Below, piece after piece: positions 250 to 25,128 of a DNA stretch of 64,000 bases. Made by a program: the position numbers and the translations under genes. Below the pieces are notes generated by a model. The model saw nothing but the letters and a program-made list of their open reading frames with translations. It had not been told where the DNA came from and did no database searches. The first letter of the stretch is position 1. Every line of letters starts with the position of its first letter. The DNA comes from a virus: positions 1-64,000 of IMG/VR virus record IMGVR_UViG_3300021375_000018; one strand, given 5' to 3'.

Positions 250-325
250 AAAATAACTCCTTTTTATAATTTGTATTATATATTATATTAAGTTAAATGT
301 GATTTTATTAAAAAAAAGGATTAAA

Positions 326-694: not shown

Positions 695-712
695 AAGAAA
701 GATTTTTACAAA

Positions 713-1189: not shown

Positions 1190-1235
1190 ATATATTTAAT
1201 TTATACAGATTTAGTTAAGTAAAGAAAGAAAAAAA

Positions 1236-1487: not shown

Positions 1488-1520
1488 TTAATAAACGAAG
1501 TATTTCAAAAGGAGAAAACA

Positions 1521-1745
1521 ATGAAATTATCTGAAAGCAAATTAAGAAGAATTATTTTAGAAGAACAGTCAAGATTAACTGGTACGCCAATAAAAGTTAC
1601 ATCGTCTTATATTAATAGAATAATCAAAGAAGAACTTGAACTTTATAAAGCAAGAAAGTTACAAGAAGCTAGAAAAGTTAGAAGAGATAAGAGAATTCAA
1701 GAAACAGCTAGAAAAGTTAGAAGACTAAGAAGACTCAGAAAATAA
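1521..1745 (+). CDS. Small basic protein with capsid-targeting-like N-terminus
   Basis: 74 residues, strongly basic in the second half (repeated ARKVRR/RRLRR). AGGAGA lies 5 bases before the ATG. The N-terminus MKLSESKLRRIILEE contains I-L-E, and a second similar block, INRIIKEELEL, follows around residue 31. N-terminal K-x-(S/T)-E-x-x-L-R-x-I-I-x-E-E segments are common on small proteins of T4-like phages, and (I/L)-x-E is the T4 prohead-protease recognition pattern. I infer a DNA-associated internal head protein, comparable with the basic proteins near 51-53 kb. This is an inference; no enzymatic domain is seen. Confidence 0.55.
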   Translation: MKLSESKLRRIILEEQSRLTGTPIKVTSSYINRIIKEELELYKARKLQEARKVRRDKRIQETARKVRRLRRLRK

Positions 1746-1850
1746 TTTATAATTTATTGTAAAAAAAATGTACAATCGTGAAATTGTGTTTATAATTCGT
1801 CTGCATTTAAAAATATTCAAATTATTATATTTAATGGAAAGGAATTATAG

Positions 1851-2117
1851 ATGCAGTTATCACCAGAACAAGTAAAAAGTATTAATGTTTTATTATCAGC
1901 TGTTCAAGTAGCACAAAGAAGAGGCGCATTTTCATTGCAAGATGCACATACACTACAAGAATCTGTTAATTTACTAGTGCCACCTGAGGAACAAGAAAGA
2001 CAACGTCAAGAAGCAGAGGCAGCTGCTGCAAGTCAAGAAGAAGCAGAGACAGTTATTGGTTTGAGCGAAGAGGGTGGAGATGATTCTGATATTGATGCAA
2101 GTGGGAACGATCAATAA
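1851..2117 (+). CDS. Small acidic head-region protein of unknown function
   Basis: 88 residues preceded by GGAAAGGAAT. The N-terminal ~45 residues form a helical segment (SPEQVKSINVLLSAVQVAQRRGAFSLQDAHTLQESV). A Gln/Glu/Ala-rich helix follows, and the C-terminal tail is very acidic (EEGGDDSDIDASG). Small proteins of this layout accompany the virion genes of marine T4-like phages, but I cannot name a function. An acidic helical protein beside virion genes could be a scaffold or core component; this is speculative. Confidence 0.5.
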   Translation: MQLSPEQVKSINVLLSAVQVAQRRGAFSLQDAHTLQESVNLLVPPEEQERQRQEAEAAAASQEEAETVIGLSEEGGDDSDIDASGNDQ

Positions 2118-2170
2118 AATTCTTCAGATGTTTAATTTATTTTTAAAAAGCATCTAGTAGATAATATATA

Positions 2171-2230
2171 ACAACAGGCCCGGTGCAAAACATAACAGCT
2201 GACCCCACCAGCGCATCGGAATCATGTGGA
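2171..2230. other. GC-richer intergenic patch
   Basis: A stretch of about 50 bases upstream of the next gene is much richer in G and C than its surroundings (ACAGGCCCGGTGC, GACCCCACCAGCGCATCGG). It contains the palindrome CAGCTG but no clear terminator, tRNA or long hairpin. It could be part of a structured leader or acquired sequence. Confidence 0.3.
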
Positions 2231-2258
2231 CAAGTTTATCACAGAAAGTGAGCGAGTT

Positions 2259-2717
2259 ATGGCAGTATCACGAGGAAGAAAGTCTACGAAAACGTCTAAG
2301 ACAACTGAGATCGATAAAAAAGCTGAAAAGAAAACTTTAGATAAAAAAGTAGCTAGAAAAGAAGAGAAAAAAGTAGAATTGCCTAAGGCACCTAAGGTAG
2401 AAGAAGTTAAGCAACCAGAAGTTGTTGTAGCTACGCCTGAGGTTAAGGAAGAAGTTGTTGCACCAAAAGTTGAGGAGCAACCTGCACCAGAGCCTGTTGT
2501 AGAAGAAGTTGTAGAAGTGCAACAAGTTCAGGTTGTGCAAGAAGAAGTAAGAGAAGTTCCTAGAGAAGTTGTAGTTGGATCAACTGTGATGATGCCATCA
2601 GGCAAAAGAGGAACAGTTATTAGGGTTGATAGAAAAGGACGTTATGAAGTTCAAAGTACATTAAATCCTAGAAAAACGTATTTATACGAAAAAACAAGTT
2701 TATCATTGGTTAAATAA
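2259..2717 (+). CDS. Low-complexity Lys/Glu/Pro/Val protein with C-terminal KOW/SH3-like domain
   Basis: About 152 residues from ATG 2259; an in-frame GTG at 2226 would add 11 residues. Neither start has a strong ribosome-binding site, so the start is uncertain. The first ~100 residues are low complexity: basic at first (KSTKTSKTTEIDKKAEKK), then repeats of valine, proline and glutamate. The last ~45 residues form a compact beta-type segment (VGSTVMMPSGKRGTVIRVDRK) resembling a KOW or small SH3-like barrel. This suggests a flexible tether ending in a small nucleic-acid or protein-binding module. Neighbouring genes point to a virion or head-assembly role. Function unknown. Confidence 0.5.
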   Translation: MAVSRGRKSTKTSKTTEIDKKAEKKTLDKKVARKEEKKVELPKAPKVEEVKQPEVVVATPEVKEEVVAPKVEEQPAPEPVVEEVVEVQQVQVVQEEVREVPREVVVGSTVMMPSGKRGTVIRVDRKGRYEVQSTLNPRKTYLYEKTSLSLVK

Positions 2718-6683: not shown

Positions 6684-9600
6684 ATGGCTGAACAGACATT
6701 TAAGTCTCCAGGGTTTTTCGAAAGAGAAATCGAAATAATTAATAGACCAACATTTAGAAACTACTCTACACCTTATGGATTAATTGGACCTACTAATAAA
6801 GGTCCCGCATTTGTACCAACAACAGTTACTTCAATGGTTGAGTTTGAAAGAAAATTTGGTTCACCAGAACTAAATAGAGATACAGGACACGCAGCATCAG
6901 AATTTTTCTTAAATAACGGCAAAGCTCTTACTGTATGTAGAGTATTAGGATCAGGTTTCAACAAAGACGGAAGCAAAGCAGGCTTTAAAGTATCTGGCAG
7001 CATAGGAAATGTTGGTAGTAGTCTAGATGCAAAAAGATCATATGGCGCAGTTCAATTTATTGTTGCTAATCATACAGTTGCATCTCAAGAACATACTACT
7101 TTAGGTATTTTAAATGATAGCGACTCAATAACACTTGATGCTGGCGCTGCTGATGGTAGTGGCTTTACAGATAGGCTTGCACAGTTAGTTAGAGCAATGA
7201 TTTTTATGGAAAAAGATCATACTTTCTATATCACAGAACCTACAGCTAACATAACTAATGCTGTGACAGATGATGTTGCTACAGCAGCTAGCAGTAGATT
7301 TAAATTAATTATTGTTAAAAAAGATGACGCTGATGCAAAAATCAAAGAGTATTTGGTTTCATTAGATCCTGATGATGATGCTTATATTGCAAACGTATTA
7401 AATACTGACAAATTTAAACTTTCAGAGAAACTTCATTATTTATATGCAGATTTTCCTGTAGATAATCAAGTTGCTTCTGTTGGTAATCTTACAGTTGCTG
7501 TGCTAAGAGGTAATGATACACATATTAATAACTTTGGAAACTTTTCAAGTTCTTTTCAAACTCCTAAAACAACAATGTTTATTTCTCAACCTTATGGTGA
7601 AAGAGAATATGCGCTATTTAGATTTGAATCTCTAGATGATGGTGAATATGCTTCATCAAAATATAAAATAAGTATATCAGACTTAAGAGCATCAACAGAT
7701 CCAAATTATAAATATGGAACATTTACAGTTCAGTTAAGAGATCTTTATGATTCTGACTTAAATCCAACTGTTTACGAATCTTATTCTAGAGTATCTTTAG
7801 ATCCTCAAGCTGATAATTTCATTGCAAGAGTTATTGGCGATCAAAAAATCAAACTAAATCTAGCAACAGATGATGTTAACGAAAAAAGGCTTGTTAAAGA
7901 AGGTACATATAAAAACGTATCTGAAAGAATTAGAGTTGTAATATCAGATGATGTTTTAAATGGTGAAGCTCCAGATGATTCTCTTCCTTTTGGTTTTAAA
8001 GGAATTCAACAACTTAAAACAACTACTTCATTAATTGATGGAGCAACAACTGATGATTCTACAAAAAGTAATTTATCTGGATTGCAAGCTAGCCATAATA
8101 TATTTGGTAATGGTAACGGAGTAAATGCTTTAGGCTTCGCTGTTATGCCTCCTTTACCTTATAGAATGAAGGTAACATTAGGAGACATGAGAAAAAGCGG
8201 TACATCTCCTAAGGCATACTTTCAGACTTATTTAGGACAAGTTTTGTTAAATGGTAATTCTGTTAATGAAGAATCTGTTAATTCTAATTTATACTGGGGT
8301 CTTAATACAAGTAGAGTAACAAATATTCATAACCCTAACAGCGCTAAAGAAACTGAAAAGAACATGCTTGTTAAGAACTTAACAAAGTTATTAGGAACAG
8401 AAACTACACTTCTTACAAGTGGAGAAGATTCTGATATGTTTAATAACAATAAGTTTTCTCTAGCAAAAGTAGGTTTAAAAGCAAGTACAGCAACAGATAT
8501 TTCAGGTTCAGTAAGCGACGTATTTTTGGAAGCTGTTTATGTAAGAAATGCTGATATTTGGAAAACAGGAACTTCTGCAATATATGACACTACTACAGGT
8601 CAAATTCTTATGCATAAGACAGTTGATCCATTTTCAACAGAAGATGGAACAGCGGCCGCTGATGTTGATCGTTTAAGATTAAGTTTAGCTGGTTTATTAA
8701 AAGAGGATAAGACTAAGTTTAATAAGTATAATTCTATGGCTAAGTTTACTGCTCCTTTTTATGGTGGTTTTGATGGTGTTAATATTTTAGATAGAGACTC
8801 ATATTATTTTACTGATAGAGCATCTTCTGTTGAATCAGGTGGGCATGCAGATAATTACACAAGTGGTTTATTAGATACAAGTACAGGAATGAGTGGTGTT
8901 GAATTAGAGAACAATGCAGTTGCTTCTTATAGAAACGCTGTAAGATTAATGTCAGATCCACTTGTTATTGATCATAAAGTTTTAGTTATTCCTGGAATTA
9001 GAGGAAAATTAGTTACAGACTTTGCTGCAAGAAGAGTTAAGGATTATGGTAAAGCTATTTACTTAATGGATATTCCTAACTATGATGAAAGTGGAGCTAG
9101 ATTATATGTAGACTCAGCTGGAATATTATCTGGAACACCTGATCCTGATGAGACTTCTGTAAAGTTTGATTTAAGAGAAGTTAACAATAATTATGTTGCT
9201 TCATATTTCCCAGACGTTACAATAGTAGATAGTGGAGATTCACAAGAAGCAGCAGCAATTAATAATAGATTAGTACATGTACCATCTTCAGTAGCAGCTA
9301 TAGGAGCTTTAGCTAAAACAGACCAATCACAACCTTGGTTTGCACCAGCTGGTTTTTCTAGAGGTGCACTTAATAGAGTAAGTTCTGTTGATGTAAGACT
9401 TAGTGCAAGTGATCGCGATGTTCTTTATGAAGCAAGAATTAATCCAATTGCAAGTTTCCCAAATAATCAATTTGTAATATTTGGTCAAAAAACAACTCAA
9501 ATTGCTAGAACATCACTAGATAGAGTTAATGTAAGAAGACTTATGATTGAGATAAAGAGAGGAATTCAAAAAATTGCTTTGGGACTTTTATTCTCACAAA

Positions 9601-9836
9601 ACGACCAACAAACAAGAAGTAGCTTTATATCACAAGCAAGTACAGTTCTTAATAGAATCCAAGCAGGTTCAGGTATCGAAGACTTCCGTGTTATTATGGA
9701 CAATACAAACAATTCAGAAGCTGATGTTGAAAACAATAGATTGAATGGAAAAATAATCGTTGTACCGACTAGAGCAGTTGAATTCATAGCTATGGACTTT
9801 ATCATCACAAATAGTGGTGTAGAATTCCCATCATAA
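6684..9836 (+). CDS. 18: Contractile tail sheath protein, copy 1
   Basis: 1050 residues, far larger than T4 gp18 (659). The N-terminus has the standard sheath pattern SPGFFEREIEIINRP followed by GLIGPTNKGPAFVPTTVTS and a segment ending in KALTVCRVLG. The C-terminus is diagnostic: LDRVNVRRLMIEIKRGIQ, a helical stretch, and the terminal strand region VVPTRAVEFIAMDFII, the arm that links neighbouring sheath subunits. Extra length lies in the middle, where sheaths carry surface domains (FTAPFYGGFDGVNILDRDSY is a landmark). Good ribosome-binding site (AGGAG). It is one of three paralogues flanking one tube gene; by its intact termini it is likely a main sheath subunit. Confidence 0.93.
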   Translation: MAEQTFKSPGFFEREIEIINRPTFRNYSTPYGLIGPTNKGPAFVPTTVTSMVEFERKFGSPELNRDTGHAASEFFLNNGKALTVCRVLGSGFNKDGSKAGFKVSGSIGNVGSSLDAKRSYGAVQFIVANHTVASQEHTTLGILNDSDSITLDAGAADGSGFTDRLAQLVRAMIFMEKDHTFYITEPTANITNAVTDDVATAASSRFKLIIVKKDDADAKIKEYLVSLDPDDDAYIANVLNTDKFKLSEKLHYLYADFPVDNQVASVGNLTVAVLRGNDTHINNFGNFSSSFQTPKTTMFISQPYGEREYALFRFESLDDGEYASSKYKISISDLRASTDPNYKYGTFTVQLRDLYDSDLNPTVYESYSRVSLDPQADNFIARVIGDQKIKLNLATDDVNEKRLVKEGTYKNVSERIRVVISDDVLNGEAPDDSLPFGFKGIQQLKTTTSLIDGATTDDSTKSNLSGLQASHNIFGNGNGVNALGFAVMPPLPYRMKVTLGDMRKSGTSPKAYFQTYLGQVLLNGNSVNEESVNSNLYWGLNTSRVTNIHNPNSAKETEKNMLVKNLTKLLGTETTLLTSGEDSDMFNNNKFSLAKVGLKASTATDISGSVSDVFLEAVYVRNADIWKTGTSAIYDTTTGQILMHKTVDPFSTEDGTAAADVDRLRLSLAGLLKEDKTKFNKYNSMAKFTAPFYGGFDGVNILDRDSYYFTDRASSVESGGHADNYTSGLLDTSTGMSGVELENNAVASYRNAVRLMSDPLVIDHKVLVIPGIRGKLVTDFAARRVKDYGKAIYLMDIPNYDESGARLYVDSAGILSGTPDPDETSVKFDLREVNNNYVASYFPDVTIVDSGDSQEAAAINNRLVHVPSSVAAIGALAKTDQSQPWFAPAGFSRGALNRVSSVDVRLSASDRDVLYEARINPIASFPNNQFVIFGQKTTQIARTSLDRVNVRRLMIEIKRGIQKIALGLLFSQNDQQTRSSFISQASTVLNRIQAGSGIEDFRVIMDNTNNSEADVENNRLNGKIIVVPTRAVEFIAMDFIITNSGVEFPS

Positions 9837-9885
9837 GAATAGTTAATAAATAAAACAAGATTTAATATATAGGAGATTAATTAAC

Positions 9886-12800
9886 ATGGCTGGACAAAAA
9901 CAAGGATCAGCAAGAGTAACGTTAAGAGAAATTGACTTGTCGCAAGTAGGAAGCACTGAAATTCTACCGCAAGGTGTTCCAGCTGCTATTGTTGGTACTT
10001 CAAAAAAAGGTCCTGCCTTTGTACCTAAAACTTTCGCAAATATGCAGCAATTTAGTGAAGTATTTGGTAGTATGACATCAAGAGGAAGACTAAACAATAC
10101 TAACTTAATGGGACCATTAGCTTTGAATGAATGGATGAGAAACTCACAAGCTGGAACATTTTTACGTGTTTTAGGTGTTGGTGATGGTGACGCTTCAGCA
10201 ACAAACTCAGGTTTTGTTGTTGGTAGTGAACAAGTTCAATCATCAAACGGAAAAGTTGCAAAAAATCCATTTGCAACAATTGATGAAGATAGAAAAACAA
10301 AAGCGTCTGAAAATGCAAGAACACATATTCTTGGCTGTTTCATGACAGATGTATTAGGGTCAACATTATTAAAAGATTCTGGACTACAAACTGCATCTGG
10401 ATCTGGAGCAACTTTAGCTGAAGTTATTACAGTTGTTGGGAATAGTGTAGGTGATTCTTTCACTATATTTTTACCTAAGGAAGTAATACCAAGCGGAACA
10501 TCAGATATTACGTTAACTATTAAAACTGTAGATGCAGTATCTGCAGGTAATGTAGAAAAAAACGTTATAGAAATAAAACATGATGCTACAGCAAATAATG
10601 TTGCATCACGAATTGCAAATGTTTTAATAAAAAATTCAACTTCACATAGTCAAGCTGAGTATAAATTTTCTGATTTATCTGGAATAAATCCTTCTCAAGT
10701 ATTTAGTACAGTATTAAGCAATAACAAAGTAAATATTTCATTAGTTTCAACTGCTGTTGAAGGTGATTTTGTTAAGTTTACACAAACTGCTGGTAATACA
10801 TCATTATTAGGTGCAGCTAGTAAAACACTAAAAGGCGCAAATCCATCTGCACCTGTTATTAGAGGCATCTTAATGGCACCTCAAGGTGTTAAACCTTCTT
10901 TAGAGGTAGTTAAGTTAGAAGACGCACACTATGTAATGACTGATGAACCTGGATTGATTCTAAAGAATGAAGTTAATGAAAGAGTATTTGGTGTTACAGT
11001 AAATACACATTTAGCAGGATATTCAATTGGTGAAGTTGATAGTGCAAATCAATCGTTTAAAGTTATTCTTAACGGATATGATCCTAGTAAAGAAAGTACA
11101 ATCCAATCATCTAATAAAAACGTTTATACATGTTCTTTTGATCCACAGGCTGACAATTATTTTGCTAAAGTTCTGAATACAGATCCATCAAAGATTGAAG
11201 AACTTGGTCATTATTTGTACGCACATTGGGATATTGAAAAGACTGTTGCAATTCCTAGTAATAGTGGTTTGCTAAGAACGAATGCAGCAATTGCAGGTAC
11301 AAGCTACTCTAACATGATTGGCTTTTTAGCAGCTCAACCATCAAGTGCAGCTACTAACTATGAAAACTTTAAAAGTAGATTTAAAACTGCTAAGACTCCT
11401 TGGATGGTATCACAATTCTATTCAAGTTCAAACAAAAGTACAAGACCTTCATTAAGTGCTGATAAAACATATGATTTATTTAAGCTTCATATATTAGATG
11501 ATGGTGAAGTTGGTAATGACTTATATAGACTATTAGTATCAGACTTAAGACATGAAAACAACGACTTTGGATCTTTTACGTTAACACTTGAAAGATTTAG
11601 TTCAGATTCAGTTACAGGAACTCCAGTTATTTCTTGGAAGCAGTTAAATCTTGATCCAAGTCATAGAAACTATATTGGAAGAGTAATAGGTGATAAATAT
11701 ACTTATTATGATTTTGATGCTTCTAGTAATAGACAACGTCTTAGAACAAAAGGCACATATGAAGTTAAAAACAAATATGTTAGAGTTGAGTTATCTGATA
11801 CTTTGAAGAGAGGTGATCAACCTATTGATGCATTACCTGCAGGATTTAAAGGTCATGGTTATTTGGATACAACAACTTTAGGCTTTACAGAACCAGCAGC
11901 AAGTGCTGAAGCACAATTAGTATACTCAGGTGCAAATAATGCTAAAATAGATAAACTAGCTACCGCTAAAGTTTTACCATTACAATATGTTGATTCTATT
12001 AGCAGAAAGATTGTAGGAACAACTTTAGAAGCTTCTAGCGAATTAGCTTGGGGTGTTAAGTTTGGAATTAAAAAGAATGTAGACTTAACTGATCCTAAAG
12101 AATTATCTGAAAATGAATTTAATAAATCAATTGCAAGTTGGGCAAAGTTCTTCCCAACAGCAATTTTCAAAGAAGGCGACAACGCTGATTCATTCCAAAA
12201 ATCTTTCTTTAGCTTGGAAAAGATTTTAATTCCTACTTCTGGAATAGATGCAACAGATACAGTATCTATAACTTCATGGGATAACGCTGTATATAAGAGA
12301 GATACTTCTTTTGATCCAAGTGTAGGAAATGAAAGATTTGTAACAATATCTTCAGATGCTAAGGGTGGAAATGTTAAGTATCTTAAGTTCCGTTGTATGT
12401 TCCAAGGAGGTTTTGATGGTGTCAATATATTTGATAAAGAGAAATCAGAATTATCAGGTATTGCATCATCTAGAGAGGGTAGAGATGAAACTGGAGCAAG
12501 TAAGATAACAGGACCTACAGTGATGTCTTATAGAAAGGCTGTGGATGTATTAACTGATAAATCTGCTGCAGAGTTTCAATTAATAGCAATTCCTGGGCAA
12601 AGAACATCATCAGTAACTGATTACGCAATTACATCATGTGAAACAAGATTTGATGCTATGTTGATTTTGGATATTGATGAATATGATGAAAGTAATTCTG
12701 TTATTGAGAGTGCTGATGGTTTACCACATGTTTCTAACACTAGAAAGAAATTTGAAGATAGACTTTTAGATACATCTTTTGCTGCAGCTTATTTTCCTAA

Positions 12801-13395
12801 CATATTGATTAGAAGAACATCAGATGGTGCACCTTTAGAAGTGCCACCTTCTGTTGCAATGATTGGTGTGATGAGTCGCAGTGATGCTCTTGAAGCACCT
12901 TGGTTTGCTCCTGCTGGTTTATCTAGAGGTACTTTGATTAATTCTATTGATTCAAAGGTGCAAATGAACAGAGACCTTCTAGATGATCTTTATGATGCTG
13001 ATATAAATCCAATTTATGTTCCAGCGGGAAGACCTGGTGAAGTTTATGCATTTGGACAAAAAACGTTGTTGCAAAGTCAATCAGCGTTGGATAGAATTAA
13101 TGTGAGAAGACTTTTGATTGATTTACGTAGAAAAGTTCGTAAAGTTGGTGAAAAACTACTATTTGAACCTAATCGTGCATCAACATTGGAAAGATTCTCT
13201 TCATTAGTAGAACCTATTATGCAAGACGTTCAAAGAAGAAGAGGTGTTGTTAGATATAAAGTTCAGATTGATACATCAACAACAACTCAAAATGATATCG
13301 AAAATAATACCATTCGTGGTAAGATTTTCCTTCAACCTACAAAATCTGTTGAATTTATTTCACTAGACTTTGTTGTAGCAAACACAATTGATTAA
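9886..13395 (+). CDS. 18: Contractile tail sheath protein, copy 2
   Basis: 1169 residues, clearly paralogous to the preceding protein. Shared landmarks in order are: GTSKKGPAFVPKTFANM, TPWMVSQFYSS, FKLHILDDGEVGNDLYRLL, DPSHRNYIGRVIGDKYTYYD, MFQGGFDGVNIFDKE, and the C-terminal LDRINVRRLLIDLRRKVR and QPTKSVEFISLDFVV. Both interlocking termini are intact, so it should assemble into a contractile lattice. It has an additional ~120-residue insertion near residues 180-330 compared with copy 1. Lies directly upstream of the tube gene. AGGAG precedes the ATG. Confidence 0.93.
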   Translation: MAGQKQGSARVTLREIDLSQVGSTEILPQGVPAAIVGTSKKGPAFVPKTFANMQQFSEVFGSMTSRGRLNNTNLMGPLALNEWMRNSQAGTFLRVLGVGDGDASATNSGFVVGSEQVQSSNGKVAKNPFATIDEDRKTKASENARTHILGCFMTDVLGSTLLKDSGLQTASGSGATLAEVITVVGNSVGDSFTIFLPKEVIPSGTSDITLTIKTVDAVSAGNVEKNVIEIKHDATANNVASRIANVLIKNSTSHSQAEYKFSDLSGINPSQVFSTVLSNNKVNISLVSTAVEGDFVKFTQTAGNTSLLGAASKTLKGANPSAPVIRGILMAPQGVKPSLEVVKLEDAHYVMTDEPGLILKNEVNERVFGVTVNTHLAGYSIGEVDSANQSFKVILNGYDPSKESTIQSSNKNVYTCSFDPQADNYFAKVLNTDPSKIEELGHYLYAHWDIEKTVAIPSNSGLLRTNAAIAGTSYSNMIGFLAAQPSSAATNYENFKSRFKTAKTPWMVSQFYSSSNKSTRPSLSADKTYDLFKLHILDDGEVGNDLYRLLVSDLRHENNDFGSFTLTLERFSSDSVTGTPVISWKQLNLDPSHRNYIGRVIGDKYTYYDFDASSNRQRLRTKGTYEVKNKYVRVELSDTLKRGDQPIDALPAGFKGHGYLDTTTLGFTEPAASAEAQLVYSGANNAKIDKLATAKVLPLQYVDSISRKIVGTTLEASSELAWGVKFGIKKNVDLTDPKELSENEFNKSIASWAKFFPTAIFKEGDNADSFQKSFFSLEKILIPTSGIDATDTVSITSWDNAVYKRDTSFDPSVGNERFVTISSDAKGGNVKYLKFRCMFQGGFDGVNIFDKEKSELSGIASSREGRDETGASKITGPTVMSYRKAVDVLTDKSAAEFQLIAIPGQRTSSVTDYAITSCETRFDAMLILDIDEYDESNSVIESADGLPHVSNTRKKFEDRLLDTSFAAAYFPNILIRRTSDGAPLEVPPSVAMIGVMSRSDALEAPWFAPAGLSRGTLINSIDSKVQMNRDLLDDLYDADINPIYVPAGRPGEVYAFGQKTLLQSQSALDRINVRRLLIDLRRKVRKVGEKLLFEPNRASTLERFSSLVEPIMQDVQRRRGVVRYKVQIDTSTTTQNDIENNTIRGKIFLQPTKSVEFISLDFVVANTID

Positions 13396-13434
13396 TAATT
13401 AGATATATATTATAAAGATTTTAGGAGATTTTAA

Positions 13435-13926
13435 ATGGCTGAGACGTTATCTGTTACAGAAATGATACCAAACAAGTTCGAACCAAAGCGCAAAAATCGA
13501 TGGGTTTTCGCAATCGAAGGTATCGACGCTTTTCTTATGAAAACTGCTAGTAGACCATCATACAATACTAGCGAACAAGAATTAAACTTTATCAACTCAA
13601 AGAGATATGTTGCTGGTAAAACAACATTTGATACAATGAGTGTTACTTTACATGATCCAATTGCACCTTCAGGATCACAACAAGTCATGGAATGGATTCG
13701 TACACACTATGAATCAGTTTCAGGTCGTGCAGGATACGCTGATTTCTACAAAAGAGACTGTCAGCTAAAAATGTTAGACCCAGTTGGAACTGTTGTAGAA
13801 TTATGGGACATTAAAGGTGCATTTATAACTACAGCAAACTTTGGTGACTTATCATATGATGATGATAGTACAGTTCAAGAAATATCATTAACATTAAGAT
13901 ATGATAACTGTGTATTGCAATATTAA
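13435..13926 (+). CDS. 19: Tail tube protein, gp19-like
   Basis: 163 residues, the same length as T4 gp19. It begins after AGGAGATTTTAA. Landmarks are KRKNRWVFAIEGIDAFLMKT near the N-terminus, LHDPIAPSGSQQVMEWI in the middle and VELWDIKGAFITTANFGDLS toward the C-terminus, the usual pattern of myophage tube proteins. It polymerises into the inner tube through which DNA passes. It sits between sheath copies 2 and 3. A long inverted repeat follows the stop codon. Confidence 0.92.
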   Translation: MAETLSVTEMIPNKFEPKRKNRWVFAIEGIDAFLMKTASRPSYNTSEQELNFINSKRYVAGKTTFDTMSVTLHDPIAPSGSQQVMEWIRTHYESVSGRAGYADFYKRDCQLKMLDPVGTVVELWDIKGAFITTANFGDLSYDDDSTVQEISLTLRYDNCVLQY

Positions 13927-13942
13927 AATTTACATTTAAATT

Positions 13943-14005
13943 CTTTTTGTTGTTTAACTATTTTAATTAATTAAATATATATTAATAATACTAAGCAACA
14001 AAAAG
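13943..14005 (+). promoter_or_regulatory. Inverted repeat covering the ribosome-binding site of sheath copy 3
   Basis: CTTTTTGTTG (13943-13952) is perfectly complementary to CAACAAAAAG (13996-14005), with a 43-base AT-rich loop. The right arm runs into AAAAGAG, the only candidate Shine-Dalgarno site for the ATG at 14013. Folding in mRNA reading through from the tube gene would hide that site, whereas transcription starting inside the loop would not. There is no T-run after the stem. Confidence 0.5.
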
Positions 14006-14012
14006 AGTAATT

Positions 14013-17000
14013 ATGACAGATAATACCGTAAATATTGGCGGACCAGTACCACCTAGAAAAATATATCAAAACCCAGATGCTGAAGCAGAAACTTTAACAA
14101 TAATCGGAACAGCATACAAAGGGCCAGCATTCGTACCACAACAAGTAGTTCAACAAGGCAATAGCAACGACATTAAGAATACTTTTGTAGGCATTTTTGG
14201 TGATAGCGAAAAAAATAGATATAGAAGTCTTAAAGATGAATATGACTATCATATAGACTCTCAAGGATTTGTTGCTTCTGAAAATTGGTTTCAAAACGGA
14301 GGAGACCAAGTATCATATACAAGAGTATTAGGTATTGGAACAGGTATTAAAGATGATGATGGTCTTTATATAGATAGTGGGTTTAACGTATCAAATTTAA
14401 TATCTAGTGGTAGTATTAAAAGATCTGGAGATAACTTTTATTCAAACCCATATTCAGTAGCAGGAGGTCATAACGGATCGTTAAGTTTTTTAATTAAAAG
14501 ATTTAAAGACAAAAAAGTTGATGAAAATACAATAGATGGATTTAAAAACTATCTATCAGAGCTAGGAATATCTGCAAATACAAAAAAACTAATAACAGAT
14601 GTTATAATTTCGCCAAGTGGCGTTGTTCCCACGATACATGAAAGTTCAGCAACAAACTTACCTCAAGATGCATTTACAAAAGAAATAAATAGTTCAGAAG
14701 AATTTAATGCTATCTATAGAAATTTAAGATCTAAAGTATCATTGCTCAACTTTAGCGAAAGTACAGGATTGTATGGTAGTTATAAAGGTAAGACGCATCC
14801 AGATAGACTTTCTGACAGAATATATTTATACTTAAACGGTCTTGATAATAATAATATACATAATGTTGTAGAGATACCTGATGATTCAAATAGGTTTATT
14901 AAAAACAATAGATCATATAATGAAAATAAAACAAAAAATTATTTTAGCAATAGAATATTAGAAAAAGGTAATTTATTTTATTCAACATTTCAGAGTCTAA
15001 ACTCTTTATCAATATCTGCTAGTGCTAATGATAATGATCATAATATAAATTTAATAACTACAATAAAACATTCAGAGATATCTAGTAATACAAACTTGCC
15101 TGATTATAATGACTTTACAGATAGATTTAGGACAGCAAAAACACCTTGGATAACATCACAGCCTGTAAATAGAACAAGCCTTGATAGTAATAGAGAGAAA
15201 ATCCATGAAAACGTTTTAAAACTATTTAGAGTTCATTCAATTGACGATGGTGAGGTTGGAAATAGATTTAGGATTAAAATTCATCCAAAACAAATATTTA
15301 GTGAAAACGAAAGCAGATATTCAATATTTTCTCTATATGTATATGAATATTCAGCAACAAATAATACATATACTATTTTAGAGACTTATTCGAACTTAGA
15401 CTTAAATCCAGACAGTGAAGACTTTATTGGGAGAAGAATTGGAACTCAATATCAGTACTACGACATTGAAAGAAAAAGAATTTATACAAAAGGTTTTTAT
15501 CCTCTTATTAGTGATAATATAAGAATAGAATTACATGAGAAAGTAAATAACAAAACAATAAATACAAATTGTATACCTTCAGGATTTGAAGCTTATCCAC
15601 ATATTAGTTTTAATAAATTATCTTTTGAACATTATGATTCAATTGAATCAAACTTTTATAGTAGCTTAGGTAACATTGATCAAATGCCTGTTATTTATAC
15701 TCCTAGTTATATTAATGACGATACTGATAAAGATTTTAAAAGTTACTGGGGACCATTATTTTTCAATGTTGTAGAAAGAAAAAAAGAAGTTATATCTAAA
15801 AATTTTAATAAAAATGGAACATCAACATTTGATGAATTTAGTCTTATAAAAAACAATTATGTTAAAGACGAAAGAAATAATATGTTTTCTCCTCACTTTT
15901 TTTATACCAAATACTTTCAATCAAACAATAATAATAGTAATAAAAACGTGTTGATAGAAGAAACTAATTGGAATAACTCCTTTTTTCATTTAGAAAAAAT
16001 AATATATCCTGTAATTAAAGATACAAATACTAATTTAATTAAAAATGATTTTACTGAGGCTTTATATAAACGATCAGGTACAGCTATAACAAGTAGCTAT
16101 TTACCTAATGATCTTCATGATTACTATTCTTTTTTAAATATAGATGATGTTTTGAATGAAGAAAAAAACGATAATTACAAAGTAGATTCTAGATTTCTTA
16201 CTTTTGACTTATTTACTTATGGTGGCTATGATGGAACTAATATTCTCGATTATGATAAAAAGTCTTTAAATAATAATGCAATTGTTAGAGAAAGTTTTAG
16301 GGAAAACAAATCAATAACAAAGACTTCTTATGAAAAGTGTATAGAGTTAAGTACAAAGTATGAAAATTGTTTAGGCGATATACTCATATTACCCGGCATT
16401 AAAGAAGAAAGTTTAGTTAAAAAGTGTTTAAAAGACATACAAGAAGAAAATAGACTGATTTTTTGCTCAGACATTTCAGGTTTGACTACAACAAATGAAA
16501 TATTAGGAAGTTACTATAAAACTGTAAATGAAGTTGGTATAAATAGAAATTCATCACTTATAAAAGATATAGAAGAAGATTCAGAAGGCATTAGAACAAA
16601 TCCCTATAGAGAGTTAGTAAAAACAAATTTTTCAAATTTTAGCTTGTTTGACAGAACTAATTTTGACAGTAAATCTTTCGTTCCTTTGTTAGGTGATGTA
16701 ATAGATGAGAGTAGAAAAATAGTTCTATGCCCTACGATATATACAACAGGATTAATGGCAAAAACAATATCTGAAAATATAAATGATATTGATTTGCAAT
16801 ACAATATTGGATCTGAGTTATTAGATGATGAAAATTTTAAATCTTCAAATGAAAAATTTATAATAAATGAAAAAAGGTTCAAAGACAATGGATTAAACAT
16901 TATCTTTGAAGATAATTCTACTTTAGAAGGTACACCTATAAAGTTAATGACGTATAACACTACATTTGGTATAAGAAGTTCTGTATATAGACAAGCTTCA

Positions 17001-17378
17001 ACAGCTAGAATTTTAAATTACATTAAGAAAAAAATTGAGTTTTTATTAATATTAGGTCCAAACAGTGTGCTATTTAATTCAGCATCACAGATTTCTAATA
17101 TATATCAAAACGTTAAATATTCTCTTGATAGTCTTATGACTTCTATTAAAGATGAAGGCATTATATCAAACTATAGTGTATCAATACCTCAAGATGACTA
17201 TGCAAGTAATAATTCAGATATAGTAGAGAACTTATTAAGTGGTAAGATATATATTCAATTAAGTGATACAAACAACAAGGATGCAGACTTTACAACAATA
17301 ACATTAGGTGAGTTAGATAAAGAAATAAAGTCGTTTACAAACTTGTTAGATTCTATTAAAATATTAAGCGTAAACTAG
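14013..17378 (+). CDS. Divergent tail sheath-like protein, copy 3
   Basis: 1121 residues, recognisably a sheath paralogue: KGPAFVPQQVVQQG near the N-terminus, FTDRFRTAKTPWITSQ, LFRVHSIDDGEVGNRF, DSEDFIGRRIGTQYQYYD and FDLFTYGGYDGTNILDYD occur in the same order as in copies 1 and 2. It is far more divergent, richer in Asn, Ser and Lys, and its C-terminus differs. The RIN/RVNVRRL block is replaced by STARILNYIKKKIEFLL, and the canonical terminal strand is replaced by a sequence ending SFTNLLDSIKILSVN. In T4-type sheaths that C-terminal arm mediates subunit interlocking, so this copy may be a specialised end or minor component rather than bulk sheath. Confidence 0.75.
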   Translation: MTDNTVNIGGPVPPRKIYQNPDAEAETLTIIGTAYKGPAFVPQQVVQQGNSNDIKNTFVGIFGDSEKNRYRSLKDEYDYHIDSQGFVASENWFQNGGDQVSYTRVLGIGTGIKDDDGLYIDSGFNVSNLISSGSIKRSGDNFYSNPYSVAGGHNGSLSFLIKRFKDKKVDENTIDGFKNYLSELGISANTKKLITDVIISPSGVVPTIHESSATNLPQDAFTKEINSSEEFNAIYRNLRSKVSLLNFSESTGLYGSYKGKTHPDRLSDRIYLYLNGLDNNNIHNVVEIPDDSNRFIKNNRSYNENKTKNYFSNRILEKGNLFYSTFQSLNSLSISASANDNDHNINLITTIKHSEISSNTNLPDYNDFTDRFRTAKTPWITSQPVNRTSLDSNREKIHENVLKLFRVHSIDDGEVGNRFRIKIHPKQIFSENESRYSIFSLYVYEYSATNNTYTILETYSNLDLNPDSEDFIGRRIGTQYQYYDIERKRIYTKGFYPLISDNIRIELHEKVNNKTINTNCIPSGFEAYPHISFNKLSFEHYDSIESNFYSSLGNIDQMPVIYTPSYINDDTDKDFKSYWGPLFFNVVERKKEVISKNFNKNGTSTFDEFSLIKNNYVKDERNNMFSPHFFYTKYFQSNNNNSNKNVLIEETNWNNSFFHLEKIIYPVIKDTNTNLIKNDFTEALYKRSGTAITSSYLPNDLHDYYSFLNIDDVLNEEKNDNYKVDSRFLTFDLFTYGGYDGTNILDYDKKSLNNNAIVRESFRENKSITKTSYEKCIELSTKYENCLGDILILPGIKEESLVKKCLKDIQEENRLIFCSDISGLTTTNEILGSYYKTVNEVGINRNSSLIKDIEEDSEGIRTNPYRELVKTNFSNFSLFDRTNFDSKSFVPLLGDVIDESRKIVLCPTIYTTGLMAKTISENINDIDLQYNIGSELLDDENFKSSNEKFIINEKRFKDNGLNIIFEDNSTLEGTPIKLMTYNTTFGIRSSVYRQASTARILNYIKKKIEFLLILGPNSVLFNSASQISNIYQNVKYSLDSLMTSIKDEGIISNYSVSIPQDDYASNNSDIVENLLSGKIYIQLSDTNNKDADFTTITLGELDKEIKSFTNLLDSIKILSVN

Positions 17379-18762: not shown

Positions 18763-21700
18763 ATGTCTGTTGATAAAACTGTTAATGTTGAACAGGTAAA
18801 TAGTCAAACTGATTCAATCAATAGTCTTACAAAATCAATTGACAAACTTTTTGGATCAGTAAATAAATTATCTAAGTCTTACGAAAGTCAATCTTCGATT
18901 TTAAATAATTATAGCAGTTCATTTCAGCAAAGCGCAAATGCAATGTCAAACTTTAATGATATGTCTGATTTAAGCATAAACAGCATTTCAAGTTTAGATG
19001 ATGCAACAAAGGATTTAAGTGATACAATTGGTAGTCAATTAACATCTAGTTTAGAAGATGCTTCAAAAAAATTAAAAAGCACGCGCGAAAGTTTTCAAAA
19101 ATTTGAAGAAAATATGAAGAAGTCAAGTGATGTTCTTAGCATTTTCACTCAGCCACTAAGTAAGATTACTGCTTTAATTCCTGGGCTTAACAAAGCTTTT
19201 AAGTCTATTGGTGGGTTTACAAAGTCAAGCTACTCTTTATATAAGTCAGTTAGTTTAACAACAGATACATTTGGAAAATTTGCTTTAGTGTCTAAGGGTA
19301 TCGGTGCAGTTCTAGGTGGTGTTGTAGGTGCAGGTTTAGGTGTTGTAAGTTTTGCATTTAATGCTGTTACAAAAGCAGCTGGGTTTGCGCTTAGTGCTGT
19401 TAGCGGATTTGCTTCTTTTGCAATGAATGTATTTAAAGGAATAAAAGATGTTGCTTTTGGTTTTGTAAAAACTATAATGACAATTCCCTTGCAAATAGCA
19501 AAGGTATCAGCAGAAGTTGGTAATAAATTAAGAAAAATAATTGTAGAACAAATTGGGAACGCAAGTGAAGATTCAAAAAAGCTATTTGACCATTCTTCAG
19601 AGTTAGGTAAAACTATTGCTAGTGTAAGTTTGCAAACAATAGGCTTGATAGGCGCATTTACTCAAACAAATAGCGAAGCAACTAGACTATTTGGTACTTT
19701 TGAAAACTATCAGAAAAAACAATATGAAGCTGTTGATAGTTTAGGTCAGTTCGCAGATCTGTATGGCGCACAGTTAGCTAGAGGAACAAAGGAAGCTTAT
19801 TATTTTGAGCAAGCTCAGCAGGCTTTAAGTTTAACTGCTACAGATAACTTATATCTTGTAACAGAAGCTGCTAAAAATGGTGAGGCTGTATACTCTACTA
19901 TAGAAAGAAGAAGATTTGCTCTTGAAAGTGTAAGTAAAGAGTTTGATTTAGACAGGAAAAGACTTTCTACTAACTTTAATAAATTAAGAGTAGACATTAC
20001 AAACTTTGGACATTTGTCAGATAACGAGCTTTATAAAGTAACAGCAAGAGCAACTGAGTTAGGCCTTGAAGTTAAAGGATTAACAAGTATATTTAGTAAG
20101 TTTGATACATTTGAAGGTGCAGCAACCTCAGCAGCACAATTATCTCAAATGTTTGGTATGAATGTTGATGCTTTAGACTTGATTAGAGCCAAAGATCCTA
20201 TGGAAATTGTTGATATGTTTAGAGAAGCAATGTTTCAAACTGGAAGAAGCTTTGATGACATGAATCGACATGAAAAGTCTTTACTTGCATCTCAAACAGG
20301 AATGTCTGCAGAACAGCTTAAAATTGCTATGAACTTTAGAACTATGGGTAAGTCAGCTGAAGAAACTAGAGCAGCAATGGCTGCAGCTACTCCTGAAGGT
20401 AAACAAATAAAAGCAATTAAAGAAATGTCAGGGGTTATAAAATCTTTTAAGAAAACTTTAGAGTTTAACAACTTATTTGATTCGATAAAGCATGGCTTTG
20501 ACAATATGATTATAAGAAATGCAAAACTCAGAAAAGCTTTCATGGGAATGAGTTTAGGTTATGAAGGAATAGCAAACTTCATAACAGGATTATCAAAAAA
20601 CAAAGATGTAACAGGCGCATTAGAGGCTTTAGCAGGTGTTGTAAGACAAATTACAACAATTCTTACAGGTCCTGATATGAAAAAAGCAATAACTACAGGT
20701 ATAAAGTTTATATCTAATGCAATACAGTATATAATGTTTGAATATAATCGACTTGCAAACAATACTGATATTAATGAATTTGGAACAAAGCTAGAAGGCA
20801 ATATTAGAAGTCTATTTGGACCAAAGAGTGTTTTATATAAAATTGCTGATTCACTTTGGAAAGTAGGCAAAAAAATTGCTAAGGGAATTATTTTTGGATT
20901 TTTACTTGTATTTCCAGATATTGCATCAAGTCTTTTTGATACTTTTAGAAATGCAATTACATCAATATCAAGAATGTTAAAAGGTGACGAAAGTACTAAA
21001 GGATTTAAAAAATGGGTAATGAGTTTATTTGGAAGTTCAGAAAAAGAAGCAAATAAAATAGCAGGAGAATGGTCGAATTTATTTACTAAAATAAAAGATG
21101 AGTGGAACAAAGATGGAGGAATATTTGATCTCGATACAGGTCCGTTTGCTACTATGTTTGATTACTTAACTAATAAGTTAAAGAGTGTAGGACTTCCTAT
21201 AGGTGCAGCAATAGGTGATGCTATTACAAAATCAATAGCGTCAAATTTTCCAAAACTTGCAAGTTTTTTTGGTATGAGTGATGATGATATTGAAAAGTAT
21301 AATAGAAAACAAGGGAAAACACTTCTAACTGACGCTAGAAGTAAAGTAGGTAAAAAAGGTGGCGTAAAAGGATTAGAAGAAGCAACTGGTAAATTAGAAA
21401 AGAAAGTTTTTCATCATGACGTTTTTGACGATGATTGGACATCATCTGCAACAAAAAGTATGGTAAAGGGTGCCTTGGATAATTCAGCCTTACAACAATC
21501 AAATCAACTACTTTTAGCAGCAAAAGAAGCTGAGATGGCTGCAAAATATAAAGATGTAAATAGTGCTGATATAGTAAGTAAATTGAAAAAAGAGCAGACT
21601 GAGGAATGGTTTGGCAATATTGAAGAAGATAATATTAGTGGATATATTGAAAAAGCTGCAGCAAATCAAGGTGAAATGACAACAGATCAATTGCATAGAT

Positions 21701-22278
21701 TTAGAAAAGATATGAAACAGCTTCTTTTATTGAGATTTAAGGAAAGTATGTATTCTGAAGGAAGTCGTGGATATGAAAAAAATAGAGACTTTGCTGAACA
21801 TTTCTTGGGTGCAATTAACGATTACAAGCCTAAAGACAAAACAGGATCAATATTTAACTATAACAAGTCACAGGGTGAAATTAATGAATCAGCTGCTTCT
21901 TTACAAAGTTTGAAAATGGGTGAATCAAACGCAAAATATTCTCAAAATTATAAAAGCAACATTAAAGCAAGAGACCAAATTGATTCAATACGTAATCAAC
22001 TTATAGAAAAAGCACTTTCTGATGGTAAAGTAACTACTCAAGAGTTACAAGCAATTAGAGAATTAATTACTGCTTTTAAAAATGGTACTCAAAAATCTGT
22101 AGAGCTAACATTAAATGATGAAGTTATAGCCACATCATTCATAAACTTATTGGGTGATCCTAATATGAATGCAAATCTTCAAAATACTATACAATCTCTA
22201 AGCGCAAACAATGGCGTTGCTTTACAACCTGCTAATGGTAATTCACGGACTAATAGACAAGCTGCAAATGACAAGTAA
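18763..22278 (+). CDS. Tail tape measure protein
   Basis: 1171 residues. The N-terminal ~130 residues are heptad-like helices rich in Ser, Asn and Gln. From ~160 to ~250 come repeated hydrophobic glycine-rich segments (GIGAVLGGVVGAGLGVVSFA, then FALSAVSGFASFAMNVF), typical of tape-measure proteins, which line the tube and reach the membrane on injection. Helical segments continue (SAAQLSQMFGMNVDALDLI, then TGMSAEQLKIAMNF). The C-terminal third is hydrophilic. It sits in the hub cluster, where T4 places its tape measure (gp29). Length exceeds T4 gp29 (590), which would predict a longer tail if the usual length rule holds. Confidence 0.75.
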   Translation: MSVDKTVNVEQVNSQTDSINSLTKSIDKLFGSVNKLSKSYESQSSILNNYSSSFQQSANAMSNFNDMSDLSINSISSLDDATKDLSDTIGSQLTSSLEDASKKLKSTRESFQKFEENMKKSSDVLSIFTQPLSKITALIPGLNKAFKSIGGFTKSSYSLYKSVSLTTDTFGKFALVSKGIGAVLGGVVGAGLGVVSFAFNAVTKAAGFALSAVSGFASFAMNVFKGIKDVAFGFVKTIMTIPLQIAKVSAEVGNKLRKIIVEQIGNASEDSKKLFDHSSELGKTIASVSLQTIGLIGAFTQTNSEATRLFGTFENYQKKQYEAVDSLGQFADLYGAQLARGTKEAYYFEQAQQALSLTATDNLYLVTEAAKNGEAVYSTIERRRFALESVSKEFDLDRKRLSTNFNKLRVDITNFGHLSDNELYKVTARATELGLEVKGLTSIFSKFDTFEGAATSAAQLSQMFGMNVDALDLIRAKDPMEIVDMFREAMFQTGRSFDDMNRHEKSLLASQTGMSAEQLKIAMNFRTMGKSAEETRAAMAAATPEGKQIKAIKEMSGVIKSFKKTLEFNNLFDSIKHGFDNMIIRNAKLRKAFMGMSLGYEGIANFITGLSKNKDVTGALEALAGVVRQITTILTGPDMKKAITTGIKFISNAIQYIMFEYNRLANNTDINEFGTKLEGNIRSLFGPKSVLYKIADSLWKVGKKIAKGIIFGFLLVFPDIASSLFDTFRNAITSISRMLKGDESTKGFKKWVMSLFGSSEKEANKIAGEWSNLFTKIKDEWNKDGGIFDLDTGPFATMFDYLTNKLKSVGLPIGAAIGDAITKSIASNFPKLASFFGMSDDDIEKYNRKQGKTLLTDARSKVGKKGGVKGLEEATGKLEKKVFHHDVFDDDWTSSATKSMVKGALDNSALQQSNQLLLAAKEAEMAAKYKDVNSADIVSKLKKEQTEEWFGNIEEDNISGYIEKAAANQGEMTTDQLHRFRKDMKQLLLLRFKESMYSEGSRGYEKNRDFAEHFLGAINDYKPKDKTGSIFNYNKSQGEINESAASLQSLKMGESNAKYSQNYKSNIKARDQIDSIRNQLIEKALSDGKVTTQELQAIRELITAFKNGTQKSVELTLNDEVIATSFINLLGDPNMNANLQNTIQSLSANNGVALQPANGNSRTNRQAANDK

Positions 22279-22560: not shown

Positions 22561-25128
22561 ATGAAAAAGTATGTTCTATTAAAAAATGGTGATGTTAAAG
22601 TTGTTACTTTTGATGATGATGGTCAGGTTGAAGACGAAAAAGGTAAAGACATATCAGCAAAGCTTGCTAGTAAGCAAGTAAGAGACAGTATCTATGATAA
22701 CTCAGAAAAGTCTATAATAAAACAAGATTCTTCTTTTGGAAACAATAACGAAACAATAGAAACATACAGTAACCTTTACAAAAATGAGTCTATATACGCA
22801 ACTGAATTTGAAATGCTCACAGGATACAGACTAGGTGGATCTAGAAAAGAAAAGTTTGACGTTCAAGAAATATTTAGTTTTTTAGGTGACATTATAGCTG
22901 ATATTGCTTTTATAGAGACAATTGTAGAAGTTAATAAAATATTGCAAGGTGAAAATAACGTAGAAGAGAATTACAGCTTTAGATTTGGAAACTATACAAT
23001 ACCTTCTTTAGACATAATTTCAGAATATATTTTCAAAGTATTAAATTATCCAAAAGAAAAAGTTTCTTTAACCGAAAGATTTGTTTCTTTTTTTGCTGGA
23101 TTTAATTTGTGGTTAAAACCTGATAATATATTGGATTTAGATGAGCTATTAAAAGAAGTATCTGGTGGTTTAGGTAGTGAATTTAATAGTTTATATGATT
23201 TAGTTCCTAAAGTAGCTTTTAAAGTACCTTTACTTGATATTGCATTATCAATTGCTATACTAGGAATTGAAAACTTAATTACATTTTCAAACTCACAAGA
23301 CAAAAGAATGAAGTTACTATTTAATAAATTTAAAATGGAAAGAGAATGGAAAAATAATTATCTTTATAAATCCAAAGGGAAAGGCACATTATCAAAAGAT
23401 TTAGATCTACCAAAGATTGAAGATAATGTAAACTTAGTTGAACTAGATTATTACTTTTTTAGATTTTATATTGAAAGAATTCATGTAGGTTCTAAACTAG
23501 TAAAGTATCAATTAAAAAGAAAGACACCTTTACCTTTAAGGACAAAAGAGTCACCTTTTACAAGAGTAGGTAGTAGTAGATTTCAAAATATATTAAAACA
23601 CGAGATAAATAGTGATAAAAAATATAATTGGAGTTCTGAAAATACAAAAACAAACGGTAAGATTCATGAACAGTCAACAAGACTAAGATCTCTACCACAA
23701 GGATTGATGTTACATGATGATATAATTGAAACAATAATTTTAAATTCTAATTTAAACGAAAAAGACTCAGTTTTATCAATAGGTGATGACTTATTACAAA
23801 ACTTTTATAAAGCAAAAGATAAAGAAAAAAGATTACCTTCAAAATTAGTTCAAGAAATAGAAAACACATTAGAAGCTGAGTATATGCCTTTTTATTTGCA
23901 TGACGTAAGAACAAATGAAATAATATCAATGCATGCTTTTATAGATAACATAGCAGACTCATTTAGCCCAGAATATACAACAACTTCAGGCTTTGGTAGG
24001 ATAGATGATGTTAGATCATATGTTAAAACAAATAGACAAATAAACTTAACTTTTAAAATTGTTTCAACTTCTCAAAGTGATCATGACTTAATGTGGTATC
24101 AAGTCAACAAAATTGTTTCAATGGTTTACCCACAATGGTCAGATGCTTTCCCAGCATTTAAAACAGATGATAATGACAATAAAACTTTTGCAAATTTTAA
24201 GTATCCATTTTCTCAAGTTCCAACTTCTTCACCACTTGTAAGACTTAGAGTAGGTGATGTTATAAAGTCAAACTATAGCAGAACAAGTCTTTCAAGATTA
24301 CATGGACTTACAAGTTTTGCTAATCCTAATAAAATGACTAAAAACGTCAAGATAAACAATAAAAAAACAGAAGTTACAGATAAAAGTATAGTGTTTGAAA
24401 AAGGATCCGATGAGCATATACTTTTGCCCGGCATGTACAGAGATAATGCGTTTTCTGGAGAAAATTTTTTAGACTCTGTATCAGACTTTGATATGGGATA
24501 TTTTAATATTAAAAAGCCTGTTAAAGTTAAAAATATAGGTAGTTCATTTTCAATAGGTAAAAGCTTTGTTTCTAAAGTAAAAGTTATTGAAGAAAATCAC
24601 CCAGCAAAAGATAAGGTGCTAACTGTTGATGTAAGAAGTATTATTAATAAAAAAAGTATGTATAAATTAGAGCAAGAAGATACAACCTCGACAACCACTG
24701 ATGTTATCCCAAAGCCTAAAAAAGATATAAAAATGGATAATATGTCTTTGGGTGATACTAATAAGATAATGAGTCCTGTTGATAGTGAGGGTAGACAAAA
24801 CAATCCAATAACAAAAGCTTATGAGAGTGGTATGAGTAGAGGTTTAGCAGGATTTATAACAAATTTAGATATAAGTTATAACGAGTTTACTTGGGAAACA
24901 AGCAGAGTAGGATCTAAAGCACCAATGATGGTTTCTGTTACAATGGCATTTGCTCCAATACATGATATACCGCCAGGTTTAGATCATAATGGAATGATGA
25001 GAGCACCAATATATAATGTTGGAAGAATAAACAACGAAATTTTTGGTGATCCGCATGATGGAGACAATGGATTAAATTCAGGGCGTAGAGAAACTTTAAA
25101 ATATCTTAAAAAGTTTATTAAGGAGTAA
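22561..25128 (+). CDS. Large baseplate protein, probable tube-initiator or hub component
   Basis: 855 residues. Residues ~1-440 have no clear signature. The second half has landmarks seen in baseplate/tube-fold proteins of myophages: IISMHAFIDNIADSF, GFGRIDDVRSYVKTNRQINL, then PLVRLRVGDVIKSNYS, and near the C-terminus GFITNLDISYNEFTWETS and VTMAFAPIHDIPPGLDHNG. An IGPxFGR-like motif, then 'R-x-I-x-L-x-F', then 'P-P/S-L-V-R-(L/V)-R-x-G-D' is typical of proteins that sit where tube meets baseplate. Immediately followed by a LysM-like gp53-type gene. I assign a baseplate hub/tube initiation role without choosing between gp48, gp54 or gp27 equivalents. Confidence 0.6.
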   Translation: MKKYVLLKNGDVKVVTFDDDGQVEDEKGKDISAKLASKQVRDSIYDNSEKSIIKQDSSFGNNNETIETYSNLYKNESIYATEFEMLTGYRLGGSRKEKFDVQEIFSFLGDIIADIAFIETIVEVNKILQGENNVEENYSFRFGNYTIPSLDIISEYIFKVLNYPKEKVSLTERFVSFFAGFNLWLKPDNILDLDELLKEVSGGLGSEFNSLYDLVPKVAFKVPLLDIALSIAILGIENLITFSNSQDKRMKLLFNKFKMEREWKNNYLYKSKGKGTLSKDLDLPKIEDNVNLVELDYYFFRFYIERIHVGSKLVKYQLKRKTPLPLRTKESPFTRVGSSRFQNILKHEINSDKKYNWSSENTKTNGKIHEQSTRLRSLPQGLMLHDDIIETIILNSNLNEKDSVLSIGDDLLQNFYKAKDKEKRLPSKLVQEIENTLEAEYMPFYLHDVRTNEIISMHAFIDNIADSFSPEYTTTSGFGRIDDVRSYVKTNRQINLTFKIVSTSQSDHDLMWYQVNKIVSMVYPQWSDAFPAFKTDDNDNKTFANFKYPFSQVPTSSPLVRLRVGDVIKSNYSRTSLSRLHGLTSFANPNKMTKNVKINNKKTEVTDKSIVFEKGSDEHILLPGMYRDNAFSGENFLDSVSDFDMGYFNIKKPVKVKNIGSSFSIGKSFVSKVKVIEENHPAKDKVLTVDVRSIINKKSMYKLEQEDTTSTTTDVIPKPKKDIKMDNMSLGDTNKIMSPVDSEGRQNNPITKAYESGMSRGLAGFITNLDISYNEFTWETSRVGSKAPMMVSVTMAFAPIHDIPPGLDHNGMMRAPIYNVGRINNEIFGDPHDGDNGLNSGRRETLKYLKKFIKE

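Follow-up and report, generated by a model that had tools for sequence, protein, structure and literature searches.

We examined the tail sheath genes in positions 1-64,000 (the window) of the 87,118-bp IMG/VR virus record IMGVR_UViG_3300021375_000018, a linear fragment. Three sheath paralogues, which we call S1, S2 and S3, surround a single tail tube gene (Table 1), and the record as a whole contains one tube gene and three sheath genes, no more. S1 and S2 keep the features of full sheath subunits, whereas S3 has lost those by which such subunits interlock. An earlier note on this DNA had described paralogues of 1050, 1169 and 1121 residues with one 163-residue tube gene, compared with a 659-residue sheath protein in T4. 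Coordinates, lengths and gene order were as described, and the PDB entries of T4 gp18 agree with the length given.

Table 1. Features of the sheath locus, with positions in the window.
Feature	Position	Strand	Basis and remarks
gp15-type tail sheath stabilizer/terminator, 406 aa	5405..6625	+	PF16724 1.4e-6, phrog_227 7.8e-5; directly 5' of S1, position conserved
S1, tail sheath protein 1, 1050 aa	6684..9836	+	PF17482 2.5e-9, PF04984, phrog_23 1.1e-52; both interlocking arms present
S2, tail sheath protein 2, 1169 aa	9886..13395	+	PF17482 9e-7, phrog_23 9.2e-45; both arms present, SPG lost, REIDL kept
S2 hypervariable insert, about residues 168-310	10387..10815	+	block lengths in the S2 family alignment
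gp19-type tail tube protein, 163 aa	13435..13926	+	phrog_4542 1.1e-30; PF06841 27.4 bits, just below the cut-off of 28.2
Predicted RNA hairpin in the tube-S3 gap	13940..14008	+	17-bp stem, arms 13940-13956 and 13992-14008
S3, third sheath paralogue, 1121 aa	14013..17378	+	homology, fold model, column retention, apparent single origin, purifying selection, predicted weak Shine-Dalgarno site
gp26-type baseplate hub protein, 281 aa	17400..18245	+	PF12322 6.1e-16, phrog_150 1.5e-20

Both S1 and S2 match tail sheath families and contain the C-terminal sheath domain, the universal wall motifs (PWFAPAG and GQKT..SALDRxNVRRL) and the N- and C-terminal interlocking arms that characterize the sheath family. 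S3 gave no family match in Pfam or PHROG. It is homologous to S2 (BLASTP, 6e-36) and S1 (4e-20) across hundreds of residues, and an AlphaFold model built on a 68-row alignment of S3, S2 and S1 rows adopted a sheath fold, with a predicted local distance difference test (pLDDT) score of 77.9 and a predicted template modeling score of 0.84. The top PDB match of this model in Foldseek was T4 gp18 (E 4.6e-11), and other sheaths matched as well. S3 shares ancestry and fold with contractile sheath proteins. Both termini of the model are disordered, with pLDDT below 50 for residues 1-17 and 1104-1121, and a short strand (residues 1094-1097) followed by a helix takes the place of the arm strand of S1 and S2.

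Retention was scored for each copy at 109 positions shared universally by S1, S2 and single sheaths. S1 and S2 of all lineages retain 82-100% of these positions in every region; for the window's clade the regional figures are 95-100% for S1 and 94-100% for S2. Both arms are present at the termini of S1 (SPGFFEREIE ... VEFIAMDFIITNSGVEFP) and of S2 (VTLREIDLSQ ... VEFISLDFVVANT), although the SPG motif has been lost in S2 of the window's clade. S3 retains 88% of the N-core and 80% of the middle region. Its retention is 42% in the C-domain, 25% in the DRINVRR region, 15% in the PWFAPAG region and 14% in the C-arm, with 48% in the N-arm, where only four positions are scored and one of them is the initiator Met. 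The combination of wall signature and interlocking arms that marks the sheath family is thus absent from S3. These figures bear out the earlier note in that S1 and S2 keep both interlocking termini and S3 lacks the canonical C-terminal strand; beyond that note, the losses of S3 extend to the N-terminal arm and to most of the wall and C-domain signature. Sheath subunits of XM1 and Mu are joined by their arms: the N-arm of a subunit pairs with the C-arm of the adjacent one in a handshake sheet, which sits on domain I of the next ring down, and at the ends of the sheath the arms pair with a gp25-like protein and with the tail terminator (PMC10457771, PMC11915804). Because the arms form this sheet between rings, a protein that lacks them, as S3 does, cannot serve as an ordinary lattice subunit.

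The insert of S2 varies from zero length in one relative (L018) to more than 700 residues in another (L015), and the last 210 residues of S2 are nearly constant in length. A Pfam scan of the insert returned no domain; it may be exposed on the surface and decorate the sheath.

Viral-contig scans with S2, a tube alignment and an S1 alignment yielded about 170 loci, in which each open reading frame (ORF) was typed with profiles of S1, S2, S3, tube, gp15 and gp26. S3 alone found no relative as a viral-contig query, whereas the S2, tube and S1 queries did, and against 50,697 annotated phage records it gave only two weak matches, each covering 14% of S3. In the outer relatives, the single sheath measures about 710-910 aa and the tube gene lies near gp26. 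A large group encodes two sheath proteins, S1 and S2, most of which are of about 1000 aa, and here the tube gene adjoins gp26 in most cases. In the three-sheath arrangement S1-S2-tube-S3-gp26, the gap between tube and gp26 is always 3.3-3.9 kb and is occupied by one S3 frame of 1051-1231 aa; this order was found in 16 of the 16 distinct records with complete tube and gp26 genes. A different arrangement with three copies, S1-S2-S2b-tube-gp26 (three-b), occurs in five loci (L057, L163, L167, L169 and L180). In long records, the sheath genes numbered one, two or three according to the type of phage, with none extra. Because the three-paralogue pattern recurs in many independent contigs, it is neither chance nor an assembly artefact. 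The records reach 278 kb, and among the two-sheath relatives is a contig of 306 kb that had been binned into a metagenome-assembled bacterial genome; the carriers of three sheath genes are a group of uncultured, often very large phages.

Some loci depart from these arrangements. S3 is shortened to 276 aa in L151 (10493-11323), and S2 is split into two frames in L026 (8463-11920) and L075, through either real disruption or assembly error. In L038 (3050-6225), a tube-gp26 gap of S3 size (3.2 kb) holds only short ORFs, with no S3 remnant or similarity.

The origin of the copies was examined with two trees. In a tree of tube and gp26, the labels one, two, three and three-b require three changes, the minimum possible, and the records bearing S3 form a single clade with a Shimodaira-Hasegawa-like approximate likelihood ratio test support of 99. 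A sheath tree calculated with a site-mixture model and rooted on single-sheath relatives recovered S1 as one clade (support 100), placed S3 as sister to S2 of the same phages (98) and derived S2b, the third copy of the three-b lineage, from the S2 of that lineage (99); both trees were computed quickly and the S3 branch is long, which makes the exact sister relation less firm. The topologies indicate that the S1/S2 duplication is old and that third copies arose at least twice, each from S2, with S3 apparently gained once in the window's clade by duplication of S2. Retention in S2b is 96-97% in the N-core and middle regions, 67% in the C-domain, 60% in the N-arm and 49% in the C-arm. S2b is eroded like S3, more mildly. 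The comparison of copy number among relatives that the earlier note had proposed hence gave a clean series of one, two and three sheaths, with two apparently independent third copies. In a further locus (L171, positions 3-2570, minus strand), a partial sheath-like ORF of 856 aa, which runs into the contig end, is found upstream of gp15 in inverted orientation. This ORF resembles S2, lacks the REID arm and is unplaced in the tree; perhaps it is another independent third copy.

S3 is the fastest-evolving member of the cluster, with a mean identity of 0.32, compared with 0.59 for S1, 0.54 for S2 and 0.82 for the tube protein. Ratios of nonsynonymous to synonymous substitution rates (dN/dS) were 0.24-0.41 for S3, 0.15-0.25 for S1 and 0.22-0.30 for S2, rough values since synonymous sites are near saturation; they indicate purifying selection on S3. 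The predicted initiation sites also differ. An AGGAG core precedes the start codon in 16 of 16 S1 genes, 21 of 22 S2 genes and 26 of 26 tube genes, but in only 1 of 25 S3 genes and in none of five S2b genes. By this measure, S3 and S2b are the only sheath or tube genes of their clusters that lack a strong Shine-Dalgarno site. Predicted RNA structure lies ahead of both S3 and S2b. The start regions of S3 genes have a mean folding z of -2.8, with 11 of 25 below -3, and none of the S1, S2, tube and gp26 genes of the clade falls below -3. The hairpin of the window has a z of -3.83 against 200 shuffles, none of which folded as well, and the Shine-Dalgarno stretch of S3 is covered by its 3' arm. A sequence resembling an intrinsic terminator stands before four of the five S2b genes. 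In the S2-S2b gap of L163, L167, L169 and L180, a terminator-like hairpin (TTAAGGGCTTC...GAGGCCCTTAA) is followed by T's, and a common motif around TATAGATT...CATAGTTATGAAC could be a promoter.

We found no published example of a phage with three tail sheath proteins in the open-access literature. Two sheaths are known from PaBG and three from the antifeeding prophage (Afp) and the Photorhabdus virulence cassettes (PVC); new here are the conserved series of one, two and three sheaths, the parallel losses in an independently gained third copy, and the contrast in predicted expression. PaBG and the Lupandier group have two paralogous sheath proteins that arose by gene duplication, and both are described as forming the tail sheath (PMC7412058). 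The window resembles PaBG in encoding two sheath paralogues with complete signatures, S1 and S2, known here from their genes. The two PaBG copies are of about 58 kDa and have no degenerate third partner, unlike the three proteins of 1050-1169 aa in the window, and the relationship is distant, with 27.6% identity over 28% of S1. Afp (Afp2/3/4) and PVC (Pvc2/3/4) combine three sheath paralogues with a tube protein, as in the window, and the Afp sheath is polymerized from Afp2, Afp3 and Afp4 (PMC12961389). Pvc3 is present as six chains in one PDB entry, and the two extra sheath paralogues of PlPVC1 occur in entries 9qgl (baseplate) and 9qgp, whereas 9qgn, the cap entry, lacks them. Sheath paralogues of PVC and Afp can thus serve single rings. 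These systems are not phages, however, and the C-terminal half of Pvc3 matches S1 across the wall and C-domain, whereas S3 does not. T4 shares with the window the sheath family of gp18 and neighbors of gp15 and gp19 type, yet has one sheath. Microcystis phage Mel-JY01 and similar single-sheath relatives have the same local order, gp15-sheath-tube-gp26, but a single sheath (812 aa in Mel-JY01), and the tube gene adjoins gp26. The uncultured 484-kb phage LR756508 (L029) has two sheath paralogues as well, although both are of 824 aa (8047-14010, about 1 kb apart), the tube gene (21342-21830) lies about 7 kb downstream, and one of the sheaths is a long, unplaced branch.

We propose, with about even confidence, that S1 and S2 form a two-component sheath and that S3 is a scarce, sheath-derived specialized ring or cap. 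In this model, the contractile sheath would have two components, as in PaBG, with S1 and S2 as full subunits assembled around a single tube protein. A mixed or segmented S1/S2 sheath is plausible because both proteins keep all that is known to be needed of a lattice-forming subunit, and by analogy with PaBG their co-assembly is the simplest reading. S3 would be an S2 duplicate that has shed the interlocking arms together with the wall signature; produced at a low level, it would serve as a specialized ring or cap. A minor specialized part rather than bulk sheath is suggested because the interlock and wall signatures are lost and the ribosome site is predicted to be weak and structurally occluded. 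Of the candidate positions (neck end, baseplate end or periphery), the baseplate end is slightly favored since the S3 gene adjoins the gp26 hub gene and the extra PVC and Afp paralogues are modeled in baseplate entries. The paralogues, their likely origins, the losses of each, the purifying selection and the weak, occluded initiation site are read from sequence; the presence of S3 in the virion, its low dose and its position, as well as the co-assembly of S1 and S2, we infer. The earlier note had offered a mixed or segmented sheath and a specialized end cap as two possibilities. Each guess was partly right, for different copies: the first is plausible for S1 and S2 but much less so with S3 as bulk subunit, and the second suits S3 as a minor specialized part.

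Several observations weigh against this proposal. S3 has lost more than Pvc3, its likeness to the PVC rings is loose, and S3, having neither arms nor a normal domain I, would have to attach in some other way. The usual platform of sheath initiation, gp25, is found in long three-sheath relatives, and we rejected S3 as a gp25 replacement for this reason. With S3 rows alone (8 rows), AlphaFold gave a poor model (pLDDT 41), so the good model leaned on the S1 and S2 rows; it indicates that S3 fits the sheath fold, not that this fold would emerge without those rows. As for expression, weak Shine-Dalgarno sites also occur at gp15 of two-sheath and three-b relatives. Because the tube-gp26 boundary of two-sheath phages is structured too (mean z -2.4), the post-tube hairpin is probably ancestral, older than S3, and need not have evolved to control it. 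The idea that the hairpin arose as a lock specific to the S3 ribosome site is weakened by the same observation.

The losses of S3 relative to Pvc3 make a serious, if unlikely, alternative of a virion protein outside the sheath stack, i.e., a peripheral decoration, collar or baseplate-rim protein held by the retained outer (middle) domains. The parts that S3 retains are indeed the N-core and middle, with wall, domain I and arm signatures gone, and its evolution is the fastest in the cluster, but the gene stays fixed between tube and gp26 and the predicted fold still resembles whole sheath proteins. It is improbable that all three proteins are bulk subunits, interchangeable or segment-specific, in one mixed lattice: homology and conserved synteny would agree with this, as would the composite sheaths described for PaBG (PMC7412058) and Afp (PMC12961389), yet S3 has neither arms nor wall signature, and its initiation site is the weakest in the cluster. 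We also doubt strongly that only one of S1 and S2 is bulk sheath, the other forming terminal rings together with S3, as the PVC extras appear to do. PDB entries of PVC contain many more chains of Pvc2 than of paralogues 3 and 4, and single-sheath relatives show that one protein is enough, but S1 and S2 both have all lattice signatures and equally strong Shine-Dalgarno sites, and the large variable insert of S2 would suit an abundant exposed protein. A role of S3 outside the virion, as assembly chaperone, regulator or decaying duplicate, is very improbable: fast divergence, the weak Shine-Dalgarno site, the lost signatures and the truncated S3 of L151 would fit, but the frame is intact in all other complete records and the dN/dS values are those of a constrained gene.

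The neighborhood of the sheath genes is a T4-like tail cassette of Ad2-type adaptor, gp15-type stabilizer, S1, S2, gp19-type tube, S3 and gp26-type hub. It is followed on the 3' side by large unassigned proteins and by a T4-like replication set (UvsX, DnaB-type helicase, DNA polymerase and ribonucleotide reductase). Three large proteins after gp26 have no PHROG match (18763-22278, 1171 aa; 22561-25128, 855 aa; 25416-29696, 1426 aa), and the first has a coiled-coil-like N-terminal region and is a tape measure candidate. Two separate genes (29740-30798 and 59846-61444), with about 29 kb between them, match DNA polymerase, which suggests a split polymerase. The T4-type late promoter TATAAATA gave 19 matches where 16.4 were expected, i.e., no signal.

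The contractile sheath is usually thought of as one repeated protein. The present lineage as a whole retains two complete sheath proteins along with a third that cannot take part in the usual interlock, and a third copy seems to have arisen twice by similar routes. We tentatively suggest, at a little below even confidence, a repeated division of labor in which two interlocking bulk sheath proteins are joined by an armless, translationally restrained third, with at least two independent origins and a terminal or peripheral place. For annotators, S3 is to be recognized as a sheath derivative despite the lack of any family match. Because one-, two- and three-sheath relatives share the same neighboring tail genes, the specification of sheath ends and of heteropolymeric sheaths can be tested by comparison.

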